From the IMG/VR virus record IMGVR_UViG_3300025687_000325, positions 1 through 23,992 of that record: a stretch of 23,992 bases of DNA. One strand, written 5' to 3'. Position 1 is the first letter of the stretch. Each line of letters begins with the position of its first letter. Of this stretch, positions 4,256 to 13,585 are shown piece after piece. Under the pieces are notes generated by a model. The model searched no databases. It saw only the letters and a list, made by a program, of their open reading frames with translations, and was not told where the DNA came from. Both the position numbers and the translations under genes were made by a program. The DNA comes from a virus.

Positions 4256-4672
4256 TCACTTTAGGTTTTCTAAGAAATCTTCTTCAAAGCATTGTTGAAG
4301 ATGTACTTCGCGAAGCTTGTCGATGGGCAAGTCCCACTGGATACCTCCGCCATCTAATACATAGCTTATATTGCTATTCATCTCAAAATACTCGAGCATA
4401 GCTTCTCTAGCATCTTTATCGAGAGACTTAAATCTATCAAGTCGCTCTTGCTCATGCTCTTCTCGACTCTTTATATTTATGACAGTACTAGGCGGAGCGG
4501 TGCTTGGTCCCAAATTAATACTTCCCGACCCAGAAAAGGTCACATTAGAAGCCAATGTGCCATTAGAAGAAAATGTTAAGTTATTATTAGTAGTTTGCGC
4601 TGCGGTAATGGTTCCATTAAAAGTGTGACTTGCAGTCGGTATTGTCTGTGTTGTTTTGATTAACTTAGTCAT
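4256..4672 (-). CDS. Hypothetical protein with Thr/Ser/Asn-rich N-terminus
   Basis: 138 residues in two parts. Residues about 5-65 are rich in Thr, Ser, Asn and Gly with short alternating strands (NGTITAAQTTNNNLTFSS; NGTLASNVTFSGSGS), like beta-rich phage fibre or decoration modules; residues 66-138 are charged and helical. No family recognised. Its ATG overlaps the stop of the HNH gene (ATGA). Before that insertion it would have been coupled in the same way to the dCMP-hydroxymethylase-like gene, whose 3' end is copied just upstream. Confidence 0.65.
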   Translation of the reverse strand: MTKLIKTTQTIPTASHTFNGTITAAQTTNNNLTFSSNGTLASNVTFSGSGSINLGPSTAPPSTVINIKSREEHEQERLDRFKSLDKDAREAMLEYFEMNSNISYVLDGGGIQWDLPIDKLREVHLQQCFEEDFLENLK

Positions 4673-5457
4673 GCTTTCCCTAACATCTCTAAGATAGTTT
4701 GCAATACTTCTTCATGTAAGTTAGGATCAAAATTATTTGATTTCTTAATATTTTCTATAGAATTCATTGGTCGTAAATTACATAAGGCATTTACTGCATG
4801 TGGATTATTTATACCAATGCTATTTAGGAAACTTATAGGCACAATGTGATCTACGTTCCACTTATCAATGCCAAGTCCATAATTTTCCCAATTCATCCAT
4901 TCTTCAAATTGATTTTCTAGATGCTCTCTAAATTCGGTAAAAGAATAATTTAAGATCTTTTCAGTTTTTAAGTTTTTCTTTATGCCTTTTGCTTTGATAT
5001 AGTTTGATAACATATTTCTAGCTATTTTAGCAGCTTTCTGATTTGCTAAAAATAACTGTCTATTTTCATTAACATATCTTCCGTTTTGTTTGCCTGATCT
5101 ACTTCCAGATTCAAATGAACACGATTTGCAATTCCTTGCTCCTGTGCTTTTACGTTTACCACATTCGCATATATTTGTCCCAGTCCACGAAGGATTATTC
5201 TTGCCGCTCATTCTTTTGGACATAAACTGAGCATGACAAGCTATGCATCGTTTAGTCCGTTTACTAATAATTGTATTGCAGTCCAAACAAGATCCCTGTT
5301 TTTCTTGCTTTTTGCCATATTGAGATCCTAATATTTTTCCGCGATCTTTTCTGAAGCAATCAATACATTTATAGGCTTTTAAATTTATTTCTCTTTTTCT
5401 CTTAACTTTAATTTTCCCACACTTAACGCAAGTAGCTTCTATCTGCCATGATTTCAT
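4669..5457 (-). CDS. HNH homing endonuclease with zinc-ribbon repeats
   Basis: 262 residues. N-terminal half has several CxxC pairs (10/13, 31/34, 57/60, 71/74, 98/100, 110/113), predicted zinc ribbons for DNA contact, and an SGKNNPSWTG stretch (85-94) like NUMOD3 DNA-binding modules. The nuclease domain carries WNVDHIVP (200-207) and the following CNLRPMNSIENIKKSN (226-241), the HNH/N core. The last residues ILEMLGKA copy the end of the upstream gene (ILEMLGKS), and the DNA repeats 18 bp exactly (4679-4696 = 5464-5481). It starts with an ATGA overlap with that gene and ends with an ATGA overlap with the next, so insertion kept the coupling. The A+T-rich body differs from its neighbours. Free-standing homing endonuclease is the best reading. 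Confidence 0.85.
   Translation of the reverse strand: MKSWQIEATCVKCGKIKVKRKREINLKAYKCIDCFRKDRGKILGSQYGKKQEKQGSCLDCNTIISKRTKRCIACHAQFMSKRMSGKNNPSWTGTNICECGKRKSTGARNCKSCSFESGSRSGKQNGRYVNENRQLFLANQKAAKIARNMLSNYIKAKGIKKNLKTEKILNYSFTEFREHLENQFEEWMNWENYGLGIDKWNVDHIVPISFLNSIGINNPHAVNALCNLRPMNSIENIKKSNNFDPNLHEEVLQTILEMLGKA
4679..4696. repeat. 18-bp direct repeat, copy 1 (HNH gene end)
   Basis: CCTAACATCTCTAAGATA, identical to 5464-5481. The two copies are the 3' coding ends of the HNH gene and of the TS-family gene, flanking the HNH insertion. Confidence 0.9.
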
Positions 5458-6224
5458 GACTTACCTAACATCTCTAAGATAACTTTTTCATCTTTCTCGT
5501 AAGCGTGCATAGAATGAACAAAGTGAGAATATCTACCTTTTTGTAGATTAGGATAGGTAAATGATAGCTGATGTAGCATGGTATCCATAAGTGAGCAGAA
5601 AAACGGTAAATCAAATGCAAGTCCTTTGACTACGTCATTCGACCTCATTACGATGCTCAGGTTCAGCTTATCATCTCTGATTGACCATACACCATGAGTA
5701 GTACAAGTCACGTCTTTGTTGCCAAGATATAGATGCTCTGGTAACAGGAACTTCATGATAGCTTGTCTAGAATCTTTGTCGTCTTTTAGACTCCTAACAC
5801 ACCACTCCCATGGAGTTAACTTCTCTACCTTACTGCCAAGCAAGCGATCTGACCAGTGAGCTTTTTGGCTGAACTTGTCTGATCCCATCGACTCATTTTC
5901 CCATATAAGATATCCGTAAGCTGAGTTAATTGTGCCATCTGGATTAGCAATCTTCTCCCAAAACTTAGAAGCTTGAGCAAAGTCTTCTACTCGATTTGAG
6001 CAAGAGCGGTACAGATCTAGCTCTTTTTTAGTGTAGCTAGCTATAACCTCATTGCGAGAATCGCTCATGGTCTGTATGGGTTCTGCGGTAGGATTAATTA
6101 CTTCAAAATAGTAATTAGCTATCTCTCGAATGGGCAAACCTCTAGGAGAAGATCGATGCTCATAGCGATTCCATACATTAGAAAGAGTGATTAGATATGC
6201 ATCATGAGTGTTGTGGTGTCGCAT
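5454..6224 (-). CDS. Thymidylate-synthase-family enzyme, probable dCMP hydroxymethylase
   Basis: 256 residues. TS-family landmarks: SPRGLPIREI near the N-terminus (26-35), INSAYGYLIW (99-108), DSRQAIM (151-157, phosphate-binding Arg), catalytic Cys174 in VTCTTH, RSNDVVKG (194-201) and HSMHAYEKD (237-245). In thymidylate synthase the residue after GxPF is Asn, which reads uracil; here it is Asp205 in LAFDLPF. T4 dCMP hydroxymethylase (gp42) has Asp there and also shares INSNYGW and MRSNDVV. I therefore favour hydroxymethylation of dCMP with methylene-tetrahydrofolate. dUMP methylation is the alternative. SD GGAG precedes ATG 6224. The gene is followed by an HNH gene that duplicates its 3' end. 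Confidence 0.75.
   Translation of the reverse strand: MRHHNTHDAYLITLSNVWNRYEHRSSPRGLPIREIANYYFEVINPTAEPIQTMSDSRNEVIASYTKKELDLYRSCSNRVEDFAQASKFWEKIANPDGTINSAYGYLIWENESMGSDKFSQKAHWSDRLLGSKVEKLTPWEWCVRSLKDDKDSRQAIMKFLLPEHLYLGNKDVTCTTHGVWSIRDDKLNLSIVMRSNDVVKGLAFDLPFFCSLMDTMLHQLSFTYPNLQKGRYSHFVHSMHAYEKDEKVILEMLGKS
5464..5481. repeat. 18-bp direct repeat, copy 2 (TS-family gene end)
   Basis: Identical to 4679-4696; encodes the last codons of the TS-family gene on the minus strand. Confidence 0.9.
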
Positions 6225-6259
6225 TTGTTCTCCAAAAGATCTATGAATAGGCTGACTTA

Positions 6260-6289
6260 CTTAAATTTCATCTCCATATTCTTCTAGCA
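6260..6289. repeat. 30-bp direct repeat, copy 1 (HNH gene end)
   Basis: Exact 30-bp match with 7019-7048. On the minus strand it encodes LEEYGDEI, the stop codon and two further bases. It marks one border of the second HNH insertion. Confidence 0.95.
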
Positions 6290-7016
6290 CACGTTTATTT
6301 TTACTCCAATTATCTTTTGCCCATAGTGGCTGAAGATTGGTATAGTGACAAGCTTTCTTTAAGTCTTCTTCGTTTAATAAGTTAAAGCTAGATAAAGGAA
6401 TAATATGATCAATATGCCATCCTTGTACACCATAGTTATCCCACGTCATTCCTGGTTGGAACTTAGACTCAAGATACTCTTTTAGCTCTTCTATTGAGCA
6501 GCCGAGATCTTTTACTGCAGAACCCACTTTATTTATTCTTATTTTTGAGTTAATACGAGACCTTAGTATATCTGCAAGTCTAAAATTAATGTTTGTTTTG
6601 TAGTATGATCTTTGCTTGACAGCATGGTACTTTTTAATACACTCTTTGCTACAATACTTGTTTCTTGTCTTATTACTAACAAAAGCGTTGCCACAAATTT
6701 TACATTCACTTTCTTTTTTAAGTCTGTTGTGTCGATCATTTGAGTTTATTCTATTAAGCTCTAGACGACATTTTTCGCTACAACATTTTGTAGATTTTCT
6801 ATTTGTAAATATCTTTAAACATATTACACAGTTGTTGCTAACTGGCTCTTTTTTGCTTCTGTTACTAGCAAGTTTAATAAATTCCTCTCTATTAGAGGAA
6901 TACCTCAATTTATGATAGCGCTTTTCTTTTTCTTTTCTGCAGCTTTCAGAACATGTCTTATAGTTTGCTTGTTTTGCTTCAAACTCTTTTTTGCAAACTT
7001 GACAGTTCTTAAACAT
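6261..7016 (-). CDS. HNH homing endonuclease with Cys-rich zinc fingers
   Basis: 251 residues. Three similar Cys4-type fingers at about 5-26, 63-83 and 105-126 (CxxC...YC/CCSxxC), then a linker and an HNH domain with the block MTWDNYGVQGWHIDHIIPLS (190-209) and NLQPLWAKDNWSKNK (227-241). The order and motif spacing match the HNH gene at 4669-5457, so they are one family. Its last eight residues LEEYGDEI are identical to the end of the preceding sigma-like gene, and the 30 bp encoding them are repeated exactly. It begins 3 nt after that gene's stop. Visibly more A+T-rich than its neighbours. No intron features are seen, so it is a free-standing homing endonuclease. Confidence 0.85.
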   Translation of the reverse strand: MFKNCQVCKKEFEAKQANYKTCSESCRKEKEKRYHKLRYSSNREEFIKLASNRSKKEPVSNNCVICLKIFTNRKSTKCCSEKCRLELNRINSNDRHNRLKKESECKICGNAFVSNKTRNKYCSKECIKKYHAVKQRSYYKTNINFRLADILRSRINSKIRINKVGSAVKDLGCSIEELKEYLESKFQPGMTWDNYGVQGWHIDHIIPLSSFNLLNEEDLKKACHYTNLQPLWAKDNWSKNKRVLEEYGDEI

Positions 7017-7018
7017 TT

Positions 7019-7048
7019 CTTAAATTTCATCTCCATATTCTTCTAGCA
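7019..7048. repeat. 30-bp direct repeat, copy 2 (sigma-like gene end)
   Basis: Identical to 6260-6289; it is the authentic 3' coding end and stop codon of the sigma-like gene. Confidence 0.95.
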
Positions 7049-7397
7049 TTGACTCGAAATTGGCATGCCATACACCGTATCCACTCTTACGTTTAGTAAG
7101 TTTCTTGCACAGTTGACCACAGCGATGAAACAAGTGCTGATATACGAATGTGGATTCAAGAACTGACTTACCATCTTTCGTTCTATAATCAGGGTTATAC
7201 TTATGGAGGGCAAAGACTACTTCAGTCAGCAAGTGTTGCCTAAAATCTTCTAGGGTCATACCTGTGTTGCCGAGGAAGATCTCTCCGTCTTTGGTGGACA
7301 TCTTCGACTCGTTCCAGTTCTTCTGGACCATATCTCGAATATATTTAGATACCATACGATTATACTTAGCTACTTCTTCATTAGTGATCTTTCGCAT
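7020..7397 (-). CDS. Possible sigma-region-2-like protein
   Basis: 125 residues from ATG 7397 (GGAG six bases upstream); in-frame TTG and ATG codons a few residues earlier lack a better site. The centre reads LEDFRQHLLTEVVFALHKYNPDY...STFVYQHLFHRCGQL, which resembles sigma region 2.1-2.3 (D..QE...GL..A...FDP...F.TYA...I...I), and the overall length and helical pattern recall the late sigma of T4 (gp55). There is no region 4. The match is by eye and weak, so other helical DNA-binding roles are possible. HNH elements tend to sit at conserved essential genes, which supports importance. It overlaps the upstream gene by 17 nt. Confidence 0.4.
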   Translation of the reverse strand: MRKITNEEVAKYNRMVSKYIRDMVQKNWNESKMSTKDGEIFLGNTGMTLEDFRQHLLTEVVFALHKYNPDYRTKDGKSVLESTFVYQHLFHRCGQLCKKLTKRKSGYGVWHANFESMLEEYGDEI

Positions 7398-10052: not shown

Positions 10053-10730
10053 CTAGATACGGTATTTAAGTCGAAGTATCTTCTCTTCTCTAACAGATAA
10101 AAACTGAAATGACTCAATAGCAGCTTGCTTTATGTTGGCTATATAAACTTCGTTATCTCCGTTATTGCCTGTTGTTAGCACATCTAGTAAAAGTAGATCT
10201 TCTGAGTCTTGATTAAGAGTGTCTTCTATGCTATGGGTGGGCTTATTCATGATGATCAGATCTTCTATCTGATCTTTTGGTATTTTAGTACCTTTTGAAA
10301 TAGCTAAGATAGTAGGCGTAGAGTTATGATTCTTCTTATACTGGTTTATAAAGTTCTTGATTTTACTAATTTTCTCATTGATATGGACTGGCAATCTGAT
10401 AGTCTTGCATCTATCATAGATATATCTGCTGATAGTTTGCTTAATCCACCACGTAGAATAAGTAGACAGTCTATATCCCATACTTGGATCAAACTTCTCT
10501 ACTCCCTTCATTAGACCCATCATACCTTCTTGCACTAAGTCATCGATGTCGTGACCATGAGCTGCGTATTTCTTGGCTATAGATATCACTAATCTAATGT
10601 TTGAGTTAATAAGAATATCGCGAGCTTCTGTATCACCTTGAGCAGCTTTCTTAGACAGCTCTACCTCTTGTTTAGCAGTTAGAAGCTTATGCTGCTTGAT
10701 GCAATCAGTGTAGAAGTTTATTATAGTCAT
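10053..10730 (-). CDS. RNA polymerase sigma-70 factor lacking region 4.2
   Basis: 225 residues. Regions in order: 1.2-like (about 4-35), region 2 (42-110) with NIRLVISIAKKYA, DIDDLVQEGMMGLMKGVEKFDP and FSTYSTWWI-type sequence (here LSTYSTWWIKQTI), the region 3 start with RLPVHINEKISK, and the beginning of region 4.1 (LSVREEKILRLKYRI). It then stops (TAG 10053). In ordinary primary-type sigmas, about 35-45 further residues carry the helix-turn-helix of region 4.2 that reads the -35 box; none is encoded in any frame downstream. It therefore looks like a -10-reading, -35-blind phage sigma. SD GAGG lies before ATG 10730. Confidence 0.9.
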   Translation of the reverse strand: MTIINFYTDCIKQHKLLTAKQEVELSKKAAQGDTEARDILINSNIRLVISIAKKYAAHGHDIDDLVQEGMMGLMKGVEKFDPSMGYRLSTYSTWWIKQTISRYIYDRCKTIRLPVHINEKISKIKNFINQYKKNHNSTPTILAISKGTKIPKDQIEDLIIMNKPTHSIEDTLNQDSEDLLLLDVLTTGNNGDNEVYIANIKQAAIESFQFLSVREEKILRLKYRI

Positions 10731-10753: not shown

Positions 10754-11263
10754 TTAGCTAAAGCCAAACACGGCTCTTACAAACTCATTCGGATAAGTTT
10801 TTTCTAAATATATCATATGATTGATGACTTGAGAAAAGCTATATACACCGTGCTTCTTCCTAATAGCGTACAATCTTCTTTTTGGGTTAGGGTTCAGAAC
10901 AATTCTGCTGCACCCCAGACCATAAAACTTCTTTCGTTTGTCATTATATTCTTTTACACACTCTAGTAGCTCATCAACAGACATGTAAGACACTGAGTAA
11001 AGCGAAAAAAGGTCGATAGTAGCTGAAACAGCAGGTGATGCATCCTGTGGTATGCCTTTAGCTTTTTTCTTGTTGTCTCCATAAAATGATCTCACTCCCG
11101 CAAGAATATTGAAGAATGGGTAGTTTCTGCATAGAGGAATATCACGTATAAAAGGGTAAGAGACTCTGTCTTCTTCCAAAATTTCCTCTGTGTGCATAGA
11201 ATCTGGCTCCCAGAAAATACCATTCTCTGATCTTTCTATAAACCAGCTTATATCGGTACCCAT
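10754..11263 (-). CDS. Conserved phage-type hypothetical protein (MGTDI family)
   Basis: 169 residues. It opens with MGTDISWFIER and contains RNYPFFNILAGVRSF (46-60) followed by GIPQDAS (70-76), a pattern I associate with a widespread uncharacterised phage protein that begins MGxDI and carries RNY..F..LAGVR. No function is known. SD-like GGTGA precedes ATG 11263, four bases after the endonuclease stop. It sits just upstream of the sigma gene, with a 23-nt gap. Confidence 0.65.
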   Translation of the reverse strand: MGTDISWFIERSENGIFWEPDSMHTEEILEEDRVSYPFIRDIPLCRNYPFFNILAGVRSFYGDNKKKAKGIPQDASPAVSATIDLFSLYSVSYMSVDELLECVKEYNDKRKKFYGLGCSRIVLNPNPKRRLYAIRKKHGVYSFSQVINHMIYLEKTYPNEFVRAVFGFS

Positions 11264-11267
11264 TGCA

Positions 11268-12008
11268 TCACCACGTTTTAATTTGCTCTATATAGTATTT
11301 GTCCCAAACTTCTATTGACTTATTAGGAAAAAGAGCTTGAAATTCTTGGAACTTTTGCTTCGCATCCTCATACCATCTTCCCTTAATTTCTACTAAAATA
11401 TCCGAATCAATTAGCTTTAGATCACAGATATATACTGTGCTGTTAGACAGACTAAAGGGTATTTGCCATTCATAAAGAATCTTATGTCGGTTAAGAAAAT
11501 CAACAACGGTTTTTTCATATGAGCCTTTACAATGTTGAATTTTTCCTGTTTTCCAATTATAAGTTATAAATGTTTTTATTCCCTTAGTTAATCTTTTGCT
11601 TATTAAAGTAGGATCTTGATTACGCTGTTTTATCTTGTCTATATTAAGACATCCACAGGATTGAGTGTTGGATGATCTGAGTCTACCTGTTGATACAAAC
11701 AGCTCTTGTCCACACTGACATTTACAAAGCCATAGTTTTTTATTATCTTTAATTTCTTTTTTGATTACAGTTAGTCTATTAAATCTTTTGCCGGTTAAAT
11801 CAATATTTCTCTTATTAGTACGACACTTTTCAATTATTAAACATCCACAAGATTTTGTTGTTTTATTTCTAAGATTTGGTCTTAGAACTATTGTTTCTTT
11901 GCCACATTCGCATCTGCAAAGCCATTTGCTAACCTTTTCACCAGACGGGAACTCGTGAATGCCGCATTTACTAAGTACAGTTAACTTGCTATATTTTTTA
12001 CCAATCAT
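11268..12008 (-). CDS. Putative homing endonuclease, zinc repeats plus PD-(D/E)XK-like domain
   Basis: 246 residues. The N-terminal half has two copies of a KxFxRLTV......WLCxCxCG......L.....SCGCL module (about 3-56 and 72-121), a DNA-binding repeat common in phage homing endonucleases. The C-terminal half has SYEK (163-166), a strand with the Asp of YICDLKL, then ILVEIKGRWYEDAKQKF: the D...ExK spacing of PD-(D/E)XK nucleases. It starts one base after the VWA-protein stop and ends four bases before the next gene. No duplicated host-gene end is visible here, unlike the two HNH genes. A+T-rich relative to the flanking genes. Confidence 0.75.
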   Translation of the reverse strand: MIGKKYSKLTVLSKCGIHEFPSGEKVSKWLCRCECGKETIVLRPNLRNKTTKSCGCLIIEKCRTNKRNIDLTGKRFNRLTVIKKEIKDNKKLWLCKCQCGQELFVSTGRLRSSNTQSCGCLNIDKIKQRNQDPTLISKRLTKGIKTFITYNWKTGKIQHCKGSYEKTVVDFLNRHKILYEWQIPFSLSNSTVYICDLKLIDSDILVEIKGRWYEDAKQKFQEFQALFPNKSIEVWDKYYIEQIKTW

Positions 12009-12009
12009 T

Positions 12010-13401
12010 TTAATGAGGTATCTTTATAGTTTCTCCGATTCTTCGAAGAGGATGGTCTTCGGTTCCATCTTTTGAGATGATCCAGAGAACTTGTGGGAAT
12101 GTTTCTGATGGTCTCATCCAAGATTCTACATCTACATCATAGAAACAACCATCAGTCAAGATTATGCTGAGATCCGGTTTCCGATCATGGATCTTTTTAA
12201 GCGCGTCTGATACATCTGTACCGCCAGCTTGGAAATCAGACTTGTTGAACCGCTCTCCAAACTTGTACTTAGTGTGATGATATACTTGAGTATGCCACAA
12301 GTCGATAGTACACTTACGAGCGCCTACCTTCAAGAAGTTGTCTATAATATCTAGGAAATCGTTGGCTTCTTGGATTGAGATAGATCCGCTCGTGTCGATG
12401 AAGTTAGCTAAGAATGGTAGATTACCGTTCTTGTTGCCTGGAGCAATGTTGCCGTATCTTCTAGATGGTCTAGACCAAGTGTGCTTACGATCTACTCCAG
12501 ACGCATGTCTCTTAATAGCGGATTCAATAAGCTTCTTGTAGTTTAGCTCGCTTCTTCTAGCTTCTATATCTGATAGAAGCTCTTTAACGTGACCAGGCAA
12601 TCTGTCCATTGTTAAACTAGCTTTCTGCATAGCTCGCTTAACTAGCTCTTCAGTAGCATCTAACATATCGCCTTCTGCTGCATTAGAATCCCAGTGATGA
12701 GAGTCTAAGGTATCTAATGGACCGTTCTGTCCTTTTCCGTTACCGTCGATGTCTCCATCTCCCTGTCCCCTACCTCCAGTACCTTGCATCTCTGGATGAT
12801 CTTGAATAAACTGCTTTAGTTTTAGATAATAATACTCAGTGGTTGCTTCTTTATTCCAAGCAACTCTTTTACCGTCTTCTTCGTCCCAGAAGTCATTTAC
12901 ATCAATGCAAGCACCTGGGCAAGACTCATTAGTGCAATGCTTGCCCTGCATCCTCATCTCAAAAGGCGGGCAACTAGGACAACCAGTAGGGAGATTGGGG
13001 ATATATTGGTTGATTGCCATATCCATGGCCACATTCATCAGCTGTCTTTTGTCGGCATCGATCTTAGAGAAAGGTAGTCGAATTGGATGCTTATGAGTAA
13101 TGTGATACAGCTCGTGCTGAAGAACTGCTTCTCTTTGCAGGTCATTAAGCTTGTTGCAGAAGAAATCTGCATTGATAAGCATCTGCCACTTACGTGAGTT
13201 GGAGCTGAACATTACACCAGCTGTTGGTATCGAGATCGAGTATGTTATGTCCATACACTGCAAGACAGAGCCAAGAAATGGCTGTCTTCTAGTTAGATTA
13301 AAGATAGCATTCTGCAGAGAAGCTTTCATTCTCTCTGCAGGCACCATAGGAACCTCAACTATTTTTACTACTATTGTTTCTTGATCAGTCGAAGCTGTCA
13401 T
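12010..13401 (-). CDS. VWA-like metallopeptidase-type protein (DUF2201-like), MoxR partner
   Basis: 463 residues from ATG 13401, which has AGGTGG eight bases upstream (a GTG at 13413 lies in that site). Seen: HELYH (96-100), a HEXXH zinc motif in a helix; a Cys cluster at 141, 144, 156, 161 and 165, suggesting a structural metal site; a flexible Gly/Asp/Gln-rich linker (about 206-228); and a C-terminal VWA-like domain with MIDAS motif DTSGS (336-340) and later TDG. This is the layout of DUF2201 proteins, which pair with MoxR AAA+ ATPases. A MoxR gene lies two genes upstream. The pair probably remodels or loads cofactors into a target complex; the phage target is unknown. Confidence 0.85.
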   Translation of the reverse strand: MTASTDQETIVVKIVEVPMVPAERMKASLQNAIFNLTRRQPFLGSVLQCMDITYSISIPTAGVMFSSNSRKWQMLINADFFCNKLNDLQREAVLQHELYHITHKHPIRLPFSKIDADKRQLMNVAMDMAINQYIPNLPTGCPSCPPFEMRMQGKHCTNESCPGACIDVNDFWDEEDGKRVAWNKEATTEYYYLKLKQFIQDHPEMQGTGGRGQGDGDIDGNGKGQNGPLDTLDSHHWDSNAAEGDMLDATEELVKRAMQKASLTMDRLPGHVKELLSDIEARRSELNYKKLIESAIKRHASGVDRKHTWSRPSRRYGNIAPGNKNGNLPFLANFIDTSGSISIQEANDFLDIIDNFLKVGARKCTIDLWHTQVYHHTKYKFGERFNKSDFQAGGTDVSDALKKIHDRKPDLSIILTDGCFYDVDVESWMRPSETFPQVLWIISKDGTEDHPLRRIGETIKIPH

Positions 13402-13585
13402 CTCTTGATCCACCTTTATTGTTGTTCTCTTTAGATTCTTTTGATCTGTTTAAGTCTTGCATAAGTGAGTTTAGGCGATTAATTGATTCTCTGAGTTTAT
13501 TTATTCTATTCTTAACATCAGTGTCTATATCTTCTTGAGTTTGTTTGGATCTTTTATAGTCTCTTAGATTAATGATGTTGGACAT
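13385..13585 (-). CDS. Small coiled-coil hypothetical protein
   Basis: 66 residues from ATG 13585, with GAGGAGG seven bases upstream. N-terminus MSNIINLRDYKRSK, then a heptad-patterned helix (VKNRINKLRESINRLNSLMQDLN) and a charged, disordered tail. It lies between the transglycosylase (1-nt TGATG overlap) and the VWA protein (17-nt overlap) and is therefore co-translated with them. No family recognised. Confidence 0.7.
   Translation of the reverse strand: MSNIINLRDYKRSKQTQEDIDTDVKNRINKLRESINRLNSLMQDLNRSKESKENNNKGGSRDDSFD

Follow-up and report, generated by a model that had tools for sequence, protein, structure and literature searches.

Probable insertion of free-standing HNH endonuclease genes at phage gene ends, with duplication of the target end

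The window analysed here is a phage fragment, an IMG/VR virus record of 23,992 bases obtained by metagenomic assembly. Two of its genes, HNH2 and HNH1, each stand behind a complete gene and end in a copy of that gene's 3' end, and at both sites (A and B, respectively) this rear copy supplies the stop codon in frame. We consider it likely that both belong to the free-standing homing endonuclease genes (HEGs), that HNH2 was inserted at the 3' end of gene U and HNH1 at that of a thymidylate synthase-like gene (TS), and that the target end was duplicated in the process. That a gene end was duplicated upon insertion is, taken by itself, highly probable, and within that reading the chances are about even that the new gene end was copied from a donor. 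The arrangement leaves the upstream gene complete and puts the HEG in the operon.

Repeats at the two HNH genes of the window

At site A, positions 6260-6289 and 7019-7048 form a direct repeat with 30 of 30 bases identical, exactly where the sequence-only reading had placed it. Ungapped extension lengthened the repeat to 33 bp at 97% identity (6257-6289 and 7016-7048, spacing 759). The repeat, TGCTAGAAGAATATGGAGATGAAATTTAAG on the minus strand, is the sole exact 30-mer repeat of the window, whereas exact repeats that arose by chance reached at most 16 bp across 30 order-3 Markov simulations. It reads (xTG)-LEEYGDEI-stop-G in both U and HNH2, and minus-strand translation of the two genes confirmed the earlier statement that LEEYGDEI and a stop codon end each of them. 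Copy 1 (7019-7048, minus strand) is the 3' end of U (7020-7397, minus strand; ending ...SMLEEYGDEI, peptide ends being written here up to the stop), including its stop codon. Copy 2 (6260-6289, minus strand) is fused in frame to HNH2 (6261-7016, minus strand), to which it gives a C-terminal tail and the stop. The 729 nt between the copies (6290-7018) contain the body of the HNH2 coding sequence, which includes the ATG but lacks a stop codon of its own.

Homologues of U, which lie beside TS in relatives, place its start at ATG 7397 rather than at the listed TTG 7412; they are 48-52% identical to it and of similar length, and their C-termini differ. The description of U as sigma-like did not hold up, since the gene gave no sigma match and that label was backed by no Pfam or PDB family; the window does have a sigma-70-like gene, but at 10053-10730 on the minus strand (Sigma70_r2, 2e-21). 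HNH2 has the sequence features of an HNH/His-Me endonuclease domain. It matched the profiles of PHROG 1271 (HNH endonuclease, 2.2e-16) and PHROG 1035 (endonuclease VII, 1.6e-10), and the D-H...N pattern is invariant in the alignment of its family. The Pfam HNH model scored under its cut-off on HNH2, and Foldseek returned mostly HNH domains, none of them significant. Relatives of HNH2 terminate at NLQPLWAKDNxxKxxK without the extra tail, and in the AlphaFold model of HNH2 the last residues had pLDDT values of 43-53 compared to 91-97 for the greater part of the HNH domain. The sequence-only reading would have been refuted by a shared end that is a common conserved motif unrelated to insertion; homologues of both U and HNH2 lack the LEEYGDEI ending, which shows that it is no such motif. 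The exact identity of the two copies fits the recent event that had been proposed for them.

Site B is marked by a second repeat pair, 4669-4696 and 5454-5481, which spans 28 bp with 3 mismatches (25/28 identical) and bears out what the sequence-only reading had implied for a second HNH gene. TS (5454-6224, minus strand; PF00303, 6.3e-14) ends ...VILEMLGKS, and the HNH-type endonuclease gene HNH1 (4669-5457, minus strand) ends TILEMLGKA. Copy 1 (5454-5481, minus strand) is the TS 3' end and also holds the ATG of HNH1, which overlaps the TS stop codon as ATGA. Copy 2 (4669-4696, minus strand) is fused in frame to HNH1, contains its stop codon, and holds the start ATG of the gene downstream (4256-4672, minus strand). 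The HNH1 stretch between the repeats has neither a start nor a stop codon of its own, and the next gene retains its stop/start overlap. HNH1 gave a weaker profile match than HNH2 (phrog_28061, 1.5e-05), and the two proteins are distant relatives (E 6.8e-12, 26% identity). At both sites the HNH gene ends in a copy of the target end, in support of the earlier proposal that two independent insertions share one architecture.

TS homologues in relatives have a C-terminus made of MLG plus variable residues. The residues past the TS MLG differ in every relative listed (GRS, GI, GIDQYRGINQ, G and GKS in L067, L068, L071, L075 and the window gene at 5454, respectively), and HEGs that came and went repeatedly have possibly left these variable ends as scars.

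Other kinds of mobile element were considered for both sites and rejected. A transposon or insertion sequence was dismissed because the stretch between the repeats consists of the HNH open reading frame only, with no recombinase match, and a group I intron or intein because U and TS are complete with their stop codons before the insert and no exon lies behind it save the repeat. A third HEG-like gene of the window (11268-12008, minus strand; phrog_374 HNH endonuclease, 5.6e-33) is packed tightly between the genes at 12010-13413 and 10754-11263, and its best flank repeat had a score of just 8.

The same junctions in syntenic relatives

No relative of the window at the DNA level was found among INPHARED phages, and a direct IMG/VR search with U gave no match; the syntenic relatives that contain U were found via TS. 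Because no close HEG-free allele of the U or TS site was found in INPHARED, IMG/VR or the TS relatives, the single ancestral copy at sites A and B was inferred from relatives with ~50-60% protein identity. Two of these (G004 and G006) have U next to TS and no HNH gene behind either, whereas two others (G002 and G003) carry an HNH1 homologue, 42% identical, behind TS, such that presence and absence of an HEG occur at the same site. Directly behind U, G003 has a 49-aa open frame that resembles the HNH2 N-terminus, and we infer that the U junction was probably invaded there as well. Separately, the V/U junction of G003 is the place of an HNH-type gene (L072 2584-3156) whose start overlaps the V stop and whose end overlaps the U start, and whose flanks have just a short ACATGACAA in common.

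The TS end of G002 and G003, AGCGCGATCTTCCTCAGATGAAGAAGATGCTTGG, is repeated with 34 of 34 bases identical at the end of the HEG, where it is read out of frame and gives the tail SAIFLR. The second repeat copy is followed by KKMLGWP, which looks like a native TS end that was displaced. The alignment of HNH1 with its homologue in these relatives stops about at the junction.

In a further relative, G005, a GIY-YIG homing gene (PF01541, 5.3e-11) is flanked on either side by the 21-bp sequence TTGAGAAGTGATAACAATGAC, the two copies being identical. This sequence holds the stop codon of the upstream gene and the ATG of the next gene, and the HEG takes its start codon from one copy and its stop codon from the other. 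At the position of this insertion, G004 and G002 have an uninterrupted, single stop-N-ATG junction. The sequence-only reading had attributed the insertions to one endonuclease family, which holds loosely for the pair in the window but not beyond it: a GIY-YIG gene shows the same arrangement, and the process is therefore not a property of one enzyme family.

Repeats at HNH loci and the origin of the copies

We surveyed 174 distinct loci of the HNH2 family from IMG/VR and GTDB genomes, scoring repeats between the regions of HEG start and HEG stop and using mispaired flanks as the control. Seven loci scored at least 12 (L017, L166, L218, L237, L195, L165 and L231 3501-4592), compared to 0.67 expected, and six scored at least 13, compared to 0.29 expected. 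We regard five as clear. The end of the upstream gene is duplicated in L195 (RYSA and RYTA) and in L165 (YQSGDDPG and YQSEVDPG), and the 5' end of the next gene is duplicated at the HEG start in L166 and L218. In L017, the second of two tandem HNH genes ends in a near-exact 58-nt copy of the end of the first, to which paralogy contributes. L237 (ambiguous context) and L231 3501-4592 (a 12-bp match, A/T-rich) were not counted as clear, and a match in the A/T-rich sequence of L193 is probably due to chance. The scan that had revealed the repeats in the syntenic relatives also gave strong repeats in tandem paralogue arrays (L007, L012) and in repetitive tail-fibre open reading frames (L121, L013), which were set aside as unrelated.

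Tandem paralogues aside, the strongest repeat-bearing control open reading frames included two that are themselves HEG-like. The end of L231 630-1205, NIVEEK, repeats the upstream NIMEEKLK plus the ribosome site. L222 886-1785 belongs to an HNH homing endonuclease family; an identical 20-bp sequence lies in its leader and again downstream of its stop codon, and nowhere else within its locus. L243 is another control open reading frame with a repeat.

Most HEGs of the HNH2 family have no detectable repeat. An earlier survey of ~50 HNH2 relatives gave no strong repeat, and the excess emerged when the set was widened from ~50 to 174 loci with tighter position windows. Likewise, no repeat was found at 11 HNH genes in cultured phages, several of which stand alone or adjoin terminators. 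Thus, we conclude from sequence comparison that end duplication is a genuine pattern, that it extends across enzyme families, and that it is the minority state. A search for other phage HNH genes that end like the gene before them, which the sequence-only reading had called for, turned up further cases at a minority of loci, and its proposal of a general mechanism stands as to recurrence, with further independent cases, although "general" is too strong a word for ~4% of 174 HNH2-family loci. A recurrent process that duplicates a gene end upon insertion is well supported by these comparisons.

These counts bear on the idea that the repeats reflect chance or a shared motif, with LEEYGDEI a common ending or a repeated translation-coupling signal. 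TS ends across relatives do share the conserved MLG, and compact phage operons often have overlapping stop and start codons. Against this stand the chance repeats of at most 16 bp, U homologues that lack the sequence, the 7 of 174 HNH loci with a repeat where 0.67 were expected, and the HEG-like nature of two strong control open reading frames; we judge this idea to be extremely improbable. A history in which the HEG first stood behind the gene, and in which gene conversion later overwrote the 3' end of the HEG or selection made it mimic the upstream C-terminus, is only slightly better placed and very unlikely. Both window copies share one reading frame, and the upstream and HEG ends lie 0.8 kb apart, as such a history would allow. 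However, the copy in G002 and G003 is read out of frame, the G005 repeat is largely intergenic and carries the start of the next gene, and L166 and L218 duplicate the 5' end of the next gene instead. Mimicry of a protein tail accounts for none of them, and the out-of-frame and non-coding cases contradict such a history.

Under gene-end duplication upon insertion, the donor-copy variant would proceed as follows. The endonuclease would cut an uninterrupted gene close to its 3' end. The gene side of the break would be repaired by copying a HEG-carrying donor, which would bring in a replacement gene end together with the HEG, and the far side would be attached to the broken end of the recipient in a homology-independent step. 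In this way the gene end that belonged to the recipient would come to lie behind the HEG. The predicted cleavage site is the left edge of the rear copy.

The divergence of the copies in L218 points to a donor. They differ at 16 of 57 nucleotides, yet no more than 5 of the 19 encoded amino acids are changed (P 0.0004 compared to random changes). Because the differences are mostly synonymous even though the displaced copy lies outside the HNH frame, it is probable that the two copies evolved apart in different genomes, each as coding sequence. The copies in L165 differ in the same direction (P 0.0036); the codon alignments of both loci were chosen by hand after the repeats had been discovered, and the P values are indicative. 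A candidate empty allele for L218, L316, was rejected, as it carries the same HNH gene as L218.

By contrast, the repeats could be target-site duplications, in which opposite-strand nicks 20-34 bp apart at a gene end are filled in on both sides of the HEG, as with a transposon. Some HNH homing enzymes, such as I-HmuI, are nickases, which counts in favour of this route, as do the clustering of repeat lengths at 20-34 bp and the exact identity of the copies at site A (30/30), in G002 and G003 (34/34) and in G005 (21/21, partly non-coding). On the other hand, the insert lacks a transposase or recombinase, the repeat ends sometimes exclude the stop codon (G002, L017), and the L218 copies differ mostly synonymously with the displaced copy out of the HNH frame. 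We consider target-site duplication unlikely on balance, while for the exact repeats, as far as their sequence can tell, it and a donor copy give the same picture.

Near-identical isolates of Flavobacterium elemo phages, from one host and site, show another outcome. Isolates with the HNH gene carry foreign ends of neighbouring genes, which counts in favour of copying from a donor. At one site the foreign part covers the opening dozen codons of the next gene, at another most of the ERF gene, and in these pairs the neighbour ends were replaced without duplication. Duplication is therefore just one outcome. Isolates with and without the HNH gene (L297, L300-L302) differ in the N-terminal two-thirds of the ERF recombinase, and this part looks to have been exchanged together with the HNH gene.

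Tentatively, and with somewhat less than even confidence, we propose that HNH and GIY-YIG HEGs of phages can travel as bare coding bodies without a stop codon, and some without a start codon. Insertion at a gene junction would then duplicate a 20-34 bp segment of stop codon, ribosome site and start codon, which would repair the neighbouring genes and give the HEG its translation signals.

Comparison with described systems

By analogy, the closest known system is that of the fungal mitochondrial mobile open reading frames (mORFs), which appears to work alike. In Glomus sp., atp6, atp9, cox2 and nad3 show C-terminal duplication around an endonuclease open reading frame (PMC3630166), and atp6 of Allomyces macrogynus is cited there as the first mORF C-terminal duplication to be described. 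As in the phages, the endonuclease gene lies right behind a gene whose 3' end occurs twice; in the mitochondria the functional copy stands in front of the open reading frame and the displaced native one behind (PMC3630166). For the phages, L218 and the Flavobacterium pairs point indirectly to a foreign front copy and a native back copy. The defining arrangement, an endonuclease open reading frame flanked by two copies of the upstream 3' end, was found at sites A and B, in G002 and G003, and in L195, L165 and L231 630-1205. The systems differ in that the mitochondrial enzymes are LAGLIDADG or GIY-YIG, compared to HNH and GIY-YIG in the phages; in that the duplicated ends measure ~50-300 nt in mitochondria, compared to 20-34 bp and often identical here; and in that the phage HEGs can borrow a start codon too, unlike the mitochondrial mORFs. 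Moreover, the inserted mitochondrial copy is 64-81% identical to that of a close relative and comes from a foreign donor (PMC3630166). We do not claim membership among mitochondrial mORFs for the genes described here, as the window is a virus record with phage genes and there are differences in enzyme class, in the length of the repeats and in the evidence for a donor.

The seg and mob genes of T4-like phages resemble the present genes in being free-standing HNH or GIY-YIG genes between phage genes, with nucleotide-metabolism neighbours (PMC2988022). Overlaps with upstream open reading frames are described for mobE (UAAUGA), mobC (24 bp) and mobA (23 bp), and cleavage, unlike in the mechanism proposed above, takes place hundreds to thousands of bp away (PMC2988022). 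Duplication of neighbour ends is absent from that review, whose text does not contain the string 'duplicat'. In cluster J mycobacteriophages, HNH genes likewise lie at gene junctions, and neighbour ends are altered compared to uninterrupted relatives, but by precise insertion or by a 35-bp loss with a new lysin A 3' end rather than by duplication (PMC3706429). Xanthomonas oryzae phages also have several free-standing HNH genes between the genes of one genome, but the authors found no conserved flanking sequence (PMC2248197). Our search, which covered open-access papers, found no phage report of duplicated gene ends.

The footprints described here bear on how free-standing HEGs enter new sites in densely packed phage genomes while leaving genes and operons unbroken, and they provide a searchable signature of insertion. 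They suggest a solution common to phages and fungal mitochondria, at which each arrived. The footprints further account for unusual short tails at the C-terminus of certain phage HNH proteins, and perhaps likewise for the fast-changing C-termini of genes next to HEGs.

Different enzymes can occupy one position in different genomes. A single junction, at a gene with a phrog_772 tail fibre match, holds an HNH gene in L004, an HNH gene in L050 and a GIY-YIG gene in L132, and is an insertion hot spot.
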